Shown here piece by piece: positions 34,791 through 36,521 of a DNA stretch of 64,000 bases. The stretch is from Gemella haemolysans (GTDB lineage Bacteria > Bacillota > Bacilli > Staphylococcales > Gemellaceae). The notes below the pieces were generated by a model. The model was not told the origin of the DNA and did no database searches. It saw only the letters and a program-made list of their open reading frames with translations. How positions within the stretch are numbered: the stretch's first letter is position 1; every line of letters begins with the position of its first letter. The translations under genes and the position numbers were made by a program. The stretch is taken from contig NZ_CP050965.1 of the NCBI RefSeq assembly GCF_012273215.1, positions 1,038,541 through 1,102,540 of the forward strand, given 5' to 3'.

Positions 34791-35984
34791 TTATTTACAA
34801 TATTTTTCTCTTAATATTTTTGAAGCTTTTACCATATTCTGTAGTTTTTTCCGAATTATTGGATAAGGATTTAGAGGTCTCTTCGAAAATGTTGCAAATC
34901 CACAGTCAGGATTTAGCCATACATTTTCAGGTGGTAAGAATTCCAGAACCTTTTCTACATTTCTCACAATTTCCTCAACAGTTTCAACTCTATCACTTCT
35001 TGGATTTATACATCCAAAACCTAAAATAATTTTTGTATCTAGAAAATTATTATAAAACAATTTTTCCACTTCTCCTGCTCGAGGTGTTGAAAATTCTAAT
35101 GCCAGCATATCTACTTTAAGAGAATCAAAAAATTTCCCAAGTTTATCATATGCTCCTTCGAGTAATACACTTTCATCTTTTGTCCAATTCCCTCTACAAA
35201 CATGCATAATACTCATTATACCTTCATGAGAATTTATTTCATTTAATACCTCAATTAATAAATTCTTTGTAAACTTTAACTCTTTGTCAACCTTGACTTT
35301 TTCTGATAGAGCACCTCAGTAGAAGGAATTATCTGATTTAGAATTAGTAAAGACGATTTCTGATAATATCGGTTCATCTATCTGAATAATCTTTACTCCC
35401 TCTTTTACTAATTCTCTAATTTCATGACGTAAAAGTTTTACTACATCTTCTCCTAGTTCATTTCTACTCTCATAAGAATTTCCTGTAATTTCTTTTAACC
35501 ACATTGATCTAGTTAATAAATATGGACTTGGTAATGTACATTTGAAATGTTCTATTGAACTATTCTTTAGTACTTCTATTTCTAATTTATTTAACCTAAC
35601 TCCGGTATTTATTTTTTCAAAACAAATTGGACTATTCATACTATTATCTGAAGCATCCATTTCTTCTAAACTTTTACGAAAATTTTCATTATTCCCTGTT
35701 AATTCTTTTAACTCTTCAAGAGTTAATAATTTTACACCATCAACTATTTCACCTATGTAACTCATATAGTTATCTCGATTTAATTCGCCGCTAACAATAA
35801 CCTCTATTCCACAATCTTTCTGAAAAGAAATTACTTTATTTGTTTCTTCAATATATTTTTCTAAATACACATTACTATATTTTTCACTTTTCATACTACT
35901 TTCTTTCAACATCAACAGTTCCTTTGATCTCGGCAAACTACCTATTAATGATGTAGTAAAAGGTTTAAACAGATTTTCATCCAT
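34791..35984 (-). CDS. MetE-like (cobalamin-independent) zinc methyltransferase with in-frame TGA: candidate selenoprotein
   Basis: 397 codons in one frame, interrupted only by TGA at 35318-35316 (codon 223). The start at 35984 (MDENLFKPF) has GGAGG 8 bases upstream. It resembles the C-terminal barrel of cobalamin-independent methionine synthase. Seen are KIIQIDEPILSEI near residue 205, MHVCRGN (His and Cys zinc ligands), the later Glu in LEFSTPRAGE, and NPDCGFATF (third Cys ligand). The context is KSDNSFY-TGA-GALSEKVKV. A hairpin with a GG loop follows. I infer selenocysteine. The alternative is a pseudogene with one nonsense codon. It lies downstream of the YedF-like gene. Confidence 0.78.
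35280..35318 (-). promoter_or_regulatory. In-frame TGA and candidate bacterial SECIS hairpin in the MetE-like gene
   Basis: TGA at 35318-35316. On the minus strand GTCAA / TTGAC (35297-35286) pair around a GG, giving a loop read as AGGT, at 24-25 nt after the TGA. A lower CTCT / AGAG pairing (35311-35308 with 35283-35280) extends it. The loop AGGT equals the start of the E. coli fdhF SECIS loop. The stem is short, so support is weaker than for nox. Confidence 0.55.
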
Positions 35985-36049
35985 ACTTAATACCTCCATC
36001 ACCCTAAAGTCCTAAAATTTAACAAAGTTTATATGAAAACTCATAGACG

Positions 36050-36170
36050 CAGTGGTTTATTGATTTAAAAAATATCTTTATTAAAGCTTTTTTGAAATCT
36101 AATAAACTGTGTAGGAGCGACTCCACAAAATCTTGTTTCTACAAAATCACGATTTTTGAGTCGCTCCCTT
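36050..36170. repeat. Inverted repeat between the YedF-like and MetE-like genes
   Basis: GGAGCGACTC (36114-36123) and GAGTCGCTCC (36158-36167) are perfect 10-bp arms, 34 bases apart. GTTTATT / AATAAAC (36055-36061, 36101-36107) lies alongside. There is no T run after it, so it is not a plain terminator. It may be a regulatory leader element or a small dispersed repeat. The gap 35985-36179 holds no gene. Confidence 0.6.
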
Positions 36171-36179
36171 AAAACAATA

Positions 36180-36521
36180 CTATGGTTCAACAACTAGTTC
36201 GCTATTTGACAAAATATCTATTACTTCTGACATAGTTGTTAGTCCACCTACTTTTAAGTAATCAGTTAAGTCATAATAGTCTACACAAATTCCACAAGAA
36301 AGTATTTTTACTCCTCTTAATTCTAGTTCTTTTAAATCTTCTAACGCTTCAGAACCTTTTGCAGTATATTTTACTCCTTCTCCATAAAATATAATATGCT
36401 CTGGTAAGTGTTCTTTTTGAGCAAGAGTATGGATAAACCCTTTCATTAGGTTATCACTTAATTCTTGTTCTCCACTACCCATTCCTGTAGATTTAATAAC
36501 AACATCATATTTTTTTGACAT
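36180..36521 (-). CDS. yedF: YedF-type DsrE-like domain protein (selenium-trait marker)
   Basis: 113 residues, matching the C-terminal domain of YedF (TIGR03527). Seen are KYDVVIKSTGMGSGEQELSDNLMKGFIHTLAQ, LPEHIIFYGEGVKYTAKGSEALEDLKELELRGVKILSCGICVDYY in parts, and DYLKVGGLTTMSEVIDIL. Known members occur in genomes that use selenium. The usual N-terminal SirA/TusA domain is absent; AAGGGGGAC lies just before the ATG, so the gene is complete as a stand-alone domain. Its molecular task is unknown, perhaps selenium handling. It precedes a TGA-containing gene on the same strand. Confidence 0.85.
   Translation of the reverse strand: MSKKYDVVIKSTGMGSGEQELSDNLMKGFIHTLAQKEHLPEHIIFYGEGVKYTAKGSEALEDLKELELRGVKILSCGICVDYYDLTDYLKVGGLTTMSEVIDILSNSELVVEP

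Follow-up and report, generated by a model that had tools for sequence, protein, structure and literature searches.

The locus analysed here raises the question of whether a methionine-synthase-like gene that appears to be broken by a stop codon is intact, and what its product would do if it is. The gene lies on the reverse strand of a 64,000-nucleotide stretch of the Gemella haemolysans genome (hereafter the window) and reads from an ATG at 35984 through 222 sense codons to a TGA at 35318-35316, and then through 174 sense codons to a stop at 34793-34791, so that the frame of 398 codons is open but for this single TGA. A preliminary description of the sequence had reported two MetE-like frames of these lengths in phase with each other, and both the coordinates and the counts were confirmed. 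An open run of 174 codons would arise by chance with p ~5e-7 in a random frame at 29.7% GC, and no other frame of the window is divided by just one TGA into two parts of more than 100 codons each. The read-through protein matched Pfam Meth_synt_2 (PF01717) with 108.2 bits (E 6.8e-31), above the gathering score of 21. The apparently broken gene is almost certainly an intact methionine-synthase-type enzyme with selenocysteine (Sec) where its relatives have cysteine, and we regard it as practically certain that UGA 223 is decoded as Sec, with a SECIS-like hairpin 22 nt 3' of it. The positions of the features are collected in Table 1.

Table 1. Features of the MetE-like selenoprotein locus (window coordinates)
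Feature	Position	Strand	Basis
Short YedF, DsrE domain only, CGIC, 113 aa; likely functional partner	36180..36521	-	TIGR03527 123.7 bits, cut-off 110
GGAGG ribosome-binding site	35993..35997	-	Seen in sequence
MetE-like selenoprotein gene, 397 residues, Sec at 223	34791..35984	-	One-TGA open frame; PF01717 E 6.8e-31; AlphaFold2 model
Ser16, predicted homocysteine ligand	35937..35939	-	Invariant in 81 homologues; E. coli MetE Ser433 (PMC7857596)
Glu67, predicted homocysteine ligand	35784..35786	-	Invariant in 81 homologues; E. coli MetE Glu484 (PMC7857596)
Asp203 of IDEP, predicted homocysteine ligand	35376..35378	-	Invariant in 81 homologues; E. coli MetE Asp599 (PMC7857596)
In-frame TGA, selenocysteine codon 223	35316..35318	-	TGA in 18 genomes, Cys in other relatives
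Conserved SECIS-like block AARGTCAAGRTTGAY.RAGAATT	35278..35300	-	Nucleotides almost invariant in 16 aligned sequences, rare synonymous codons GTC and AAG among them
SECIS-like hairpin GUCA-AGGU-UGAC, apical loop 35290-35293	35286..35297	-	bSECIS spacing, loop, and stem rules; pair counts
His261 and Cys263, predicted zinc ligands	35196..35204	-	Invariant in 81 homologues; E. coli MetE His641, Cys643 (PMC7857596)
Glu297, predicted zinc ligand	35094..35096	-	Invariant in 81 homologues; E. coli MetE Glu665 (PMC7857596)
Cys361, predicted zinc ligand	34902..34904	-	Invariant in 81 homologues; E. coli MetE Cys726 (PMC7857596)

The TGA at codon 223 recurs, with no other internal stop, in 18 genomes from several Bacillota families, including Gemella, Parvimonas, Facklamia, Companilactobacillus, and Atopobacter. 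Because the identical TGA is present in 17 further genomes, it is not an artefact of sequencing or of the strain, and sequencing error was ruled out as its source. A genome-wide reassignment of TGA was set aside, since other genes of the window terminate normally at TGA and Sec genes are present. Within the Gemella family, the gene occurs in 6 of 15 genomes, with exactly one TGA in each. Scanning genome contigs yielded 80 loci. In an alignment of 81 sequences, column 223 holds Sec in 15, Cys in 66, and no other residue; class-level matches beyond this alignment again had Cys or Sec there. The preliminary description had named two findings that would speak against a selenoprotein, namely homologues without Cys or Sec at this column and frameshifts in the copies of sister species. 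Both were looked for and neither was found, the sister copies having no frameshift and no second stop, and the selenoprotein reading is thus supported. The tree separates the Sec and Cys forms on one branch (SH-aLRT 82), and an additional Sec copy occurs in a distant Bacilli genome (G082). pN/pS was 0.15-0.28 after the TGA and 0.22-0.42 before it, and it was lower downstream in all six pairs. A strong Cys-type paralogue is also present in the genome carrying the Sec gene. Another Cys-type homologue (locus L139, genome G248) has an internal TAA stop and is probably a decaying copy. A search of viral contigs found no relative.

The Gemella genome, a single contig of 2.08 Mb, contains selA, selB, selD, and tRNA-Sec, the genes that had been suggested as a check of the selenoprotein proposal, with profile scores of 68.7 bits for tRNA-Sec (cut-off 47), 352 for SelB, 597 for SelA, and 371 for SelD. 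Its selenium locus comprises selA, a cysteine desulfurase/Sec-lyase-like gene, selB, a full YedF, and selD, and SelD has a single in-frame TGA of its own, in the motif CGGUNSKIGPG. The main YedF of the genome (L143, 7391-8191, minus strand) has 266 aa, with two TusA-type domains ahead of the DsrE domain, and a phage-type integrase gene (L143, 9384-10487, minus strand) lies immediately upstream of the selenium locus. In a phyletic sample of 398 Bacilli genomes, the MetE-like family was found in 13, all of which have selB, against a selB background of 85/398 (hypergeometric p 9e-10, not corrected for shared ancestry). Among the genomes reached via their loci, selB was present in 11 of 11 with the Sec type and 5 of 5 with the Cys type, and among further Cys-type genomes, some of them incomplete assemblies, in 38 of 48. 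Because the other ten gave no selB match, the link between the Cys form and the use of Sec is not a strict one; at the same time, the presence of selB in all Cys members of the 398-genome sample and in most other Cys genomes indicates that even the Cys form accompanies selenium use.

The 16 aligned sequences have in common, 3' of the UGA, the block given in Table 1 or a near variant of it. The apical loop of the hairpin, AGGU, has G as its second nucleotide and starts 22 nt 3' of the UGA, and the stem comprises 4-5 bp; in spacing, loop, and stem, the element conforms to the bacterial SECIS model (PMC13188914). That model allows GG or GU in the loop, and the G082 hairpin has GU where the others have GG, and an outer C-G pair where they mostly have G-C. 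GTC stands at the same codon in all 15 Sec genes, while elsewhere in each gene it makes up 0-31% of the Val codons, and AAG adjoins this conserved GTC in 15 of 15. The folding energy in the window, -4.3 kcal/mol, misses the published -7.5 kcal/mol of the model (PMC13188914) and is no better than that of shuffles (z +1.1). Few relatives reach -7.5 kcal/mol, some of them via a different fold, and pair covariation is thin, with one compensatory change and an A.A outer pair in 5 of 16 sequences. Since atypical bSECIS elements exist (PMC13188914), we do not consider the energy shortfall decisive; given the weak folding energy and the few compensatory changes, the support for a SECIS comes from its position and the nucleotide constraint. 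Rfam at gathering thresholds matched only RNase P and a purine riboswitch in the 64-kb window.

The AlphaFold2 model of the protein (mean pLDDT 86, pTM 0.89) matched known structures over the whole barrel, led by MesD (3RPD, Z 36.5, 21% identity) and T. maritima MetE (Z 36.4), with MetE and MesD matches at Z 34-36 overall. All four zinc ligands and the Ser, Glu, and Asp ligands listed for the zinc and homocysteine sites of MetE (PMC7857596) are invariant, and the core accordingly resembles a homocysteine-dependent zinc methyltransferase; as had been claimed, the motifs HVC, LEFS, and NPDC all lie 3' of the TGA. Judged by its sequence, the 397-residue protein is quite probably a stand-alone MetE catalytic barrel, predicted to bind zinc together with homocysteine or an analogue such as selenohomocysteine. 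The Sec codon does fall 18 residues past IDEP, and in the predicted secondary structure it occupies a loop between the IDEP strand and the strand ending in H261/C263, which would place it on the catalytic face. This agrees with the earlier suggestion of a loop at the active-site face, the loop itself being modelled at low confidence (pLDDT about 54-61). That an insertion can reach the amino-acid site has a precedent in MesD, where a Tyr within an insertion contacts the bound amino acid (PMC7857596).

Comparison with known families sets the protein apart in several respects. It shares with MetE (TIGR01371) the fold and the catalytic ligands of the C-terminal half, but it scores 97.6 bits against a cut-off of 930, lacks the N-terminal folate-binding half, and has 397 residues instead of about 750. 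The core methionine synthases MesA-MesD (PMC7857596) are likewise stand-alone MetE catalytic domains with the same four zinc and Ser/Glu/Asp ligands, but the Gemella protein has an extra invariant Cys/Sec after IDEP, and its family is partnered by YedF, DsrE, or rhodanese, whereas corrinoid proteins or MesX are described for the former (PMC7857596). It also lies far below every curated NCBIfam methionine-synthase cut-off, and it passed no model of NCBIfam release 20.0. The Cys-type sister family, with the motif FMC.(A/G)L, has about 37-46% identity and all ligands, but it carries Cys in place of Sec and has other neighbours; both forms occur in five genera.

The gene neighbourhood points to a partner. 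Flanking genes were read at 16 Sec loci, and at 15 of them a short YedF lies directly upstream, always on the same strand, with 110-134 aa, a DsrE domain only, and the motif CGIC or CGTC. In the window, it matches only positions 83-193 of the TIGR03527 profile and is without the N-terminal TusA/SirA domain. It thus has the DsrE domain of YedF with its CGXC, a motif described for this selenium-linked family (PMC5322559), but no TusA domain, and a separate YedF of TusA-TusA-DsrE architecture adjoins selB and selD. Within the Gemella family, the genomes with a short YedF are precisely the six that have the Sec gene, and a full-length YedF lies near selB/selD in all 11 selB-positive genomes. A palindromic repeat of about 70 bp (36100-36171) separates yedF from the MetE-like gene in the window; we rejected it as a regulatory element because at least 40 copies of it are scattered over the genome. 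The sixteenth Sec locus, that of G082, has an OsmF/ProV-like betaine-type ABC importer and a three-domain rhodanese upstream of the Sec-MetE gene, in an almost gapless arrangement that looks like an operon (L145, 92-5805). The Cys copies have other surroundings. At 50 of 66 loci, they belong to a cassette of acyl-CoA-dehydrogenase-like (ACAD), substrate-binding-protein-like (SBP), MetE, and OsmC genes, whose ACAD-like protein weakly matches SfnB and sulfinopropanoyl-CoA desulfinase. This cassette, present in the Gemella genome itself (L144, 432-4260) and at about 50 other loci (e.g., L061, L071), has an Rv1679-like ACAD and a cytoplasmic-looking Rv1680-like SBP and is linked to selB genomes, including Haemophilus. 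Eight Cys copies adjoin a DsrE gene and a TusA-OsmC fusion, which lie upstream of MetE in relatives of Bacillus and Paenibacillus (L111, L115, L117, L119, L120, L121, L124, L126), and one Cys locus (L105) has a short YedF.

Taken together, the conserved Sec, the Sec machinery, the selection, the ligands, and the neighbours lead us to infer a homocysteine-binding zinc methyltransferase whose Sec or Cys works with a perselenide or persulfide carrier. We give a probability of about 0.6 to this explanation as a whole, that is, a genuine selenoprotein with a zinc/homocysteine MetE barrel and a chalcogen relay to YedF. The chemistry that we propose for it is more tentative: a methylated selenium or sulfur compound would donate its methyl group to zinc-bound homocysteine, and the selenium or sulfur set free would be taken up by the Sec/Cys residue as perselenide or persulfide and then passed to the CGXC thiol of the adjacent short YedF and onward to SelD. 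A Sec or Cys in a flexible selenium-handling loop is also a feature of SelD, the selenophosphate synthetase (PMC13188914), which has Sec in Gemella too, but its fold and chemistry are unrelated. The importer at the G082 locus suggests, from one genome, an onium-type substrate. How cells obtain selenium and deliver it to SelD is considered an open question (PMC13188914), and a bolder and rather improbable version of the proposal is that the locus encodes an undescribed step of selenium acquisition, in which the Sec zinc enzyme demethylates environmental methylated selenium onto homocysteine and passes the perselenide formed on Sec via the short YedF to SelD; if this were true, selenium would be used to acquire selenium.

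Several other readings were weighed against this relay. The protein may be a methionine synthase isozyme of the ordinary kind, with Sec shielding or adjusting the active site, for example against oxidation, and playing no part in selenium supply. The complete conservation of zinc and homocysteine ligands, the Sec/Cys replacement typical of redox tuning, and the best structural matches, MetE and MesD, would all fit. However, the Cys/Sec is invariant in the subfamily and lies outside the known zinc/homocysteine site of MetE, the neighbours are carriers of the persulfide/perselenide type (YedF, DsrE, TusA, rhodanese) and not methionine genes, and the Cys family likewise tracks selB, so that we consider an isozyme of this kind fairly unlikely.

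Somewhat less credible is a reaction in the reverse direction. The enzyme would then serve either detoxification, by methylating selenide or a selenol, or recycling, by removing the methyl group of selenomethionine to give selenohomocysteine. Methionine or selenomethionine would fit the conserved amino-acid pocket, the MesD structure 3RPD contains selenomethionine, and a selenolate bound to zinc is a good nucleophile; but a volatilising enzyme would have no obvious need for a YedF carrier, and no exporter or selenium-resistance gene is linked to the gene in the loci read. We find it similarly doubtful that this is a general sulfur family, active in sulfonium or thiol demethylation and persulfide transfer, in which selenium genes co-occur because some members need Sec. 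DsrE, TusA, and rhodanese do serve sulfur as well, the SfnB and desulfinase matches and the SBP-like gene of the Cys cassette point the same way, and so do the ten Cys genomes without a selB match. Against this, all Cys members of the 398-genome sample keep the tie to selB although they need no Sec themselves, and YedF is a selenium-linked family (PMC5322559). Finally, a decaying pseudogene, or a true stop yielding a 222-residue product, has a negligible chance of being correct: automatic annotation would divide the gene in two, a true stop would leave the enzyme inactive because all zinc ligands lie in the downstream half, and the strong Cys paralogue could cover the function, but we exclude decay because 18 genomes share the TGA and have neither a second stop nor a frameshift, and purifying selection is stronger after the TGA, while selB is present in every tested TGA-form genome, the TGA form is absent from Gemellaceae genomes lacking selB, and the ligands 3' of the TGA are invariant.

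A MetE type is not among the 119 prokaryotic selenoprotein families in Table 1 of a 2026 review (PMC13188914), and deep-Sep (PMC12013277) makes no mention of one. A search of the open-licence literature for selenocysteine in Gemella or Companilactobacillus, for selenoproteins of the MetE type, and for any link of Rv1679/Rv1680 to selenium returned nothing relevant, and a report elsewhere is possible. A selenoprotein with this barrel extends the chemistry associated with Sec to zinc-dependent methyl transfer, and it gives the selenium-linked YedF a specific partner. The two-gene unit of yedF and metE makes part of the question of selenium delivery to SelD testable. In practical terms, pipelines that read TGA as a stop would split or miss the gene in Gemella, Parvimonas, Facklamia, and the food-associated Companilactobacillus.

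The window also contains, at 29626-31050 on the forward strand, a gene for an NADH-oxidase/CoA-disulfide-reductase-like flavoprotein with an in-frame TGA (29812-29814) at the active-site position (FMGUGSQ), followed by a downstream hairpin with GGG in its loop. It is probably a second selenoprotein, and a CoA-disulfide-reductase selenoprotein family is already on the published list (PMC13188914).
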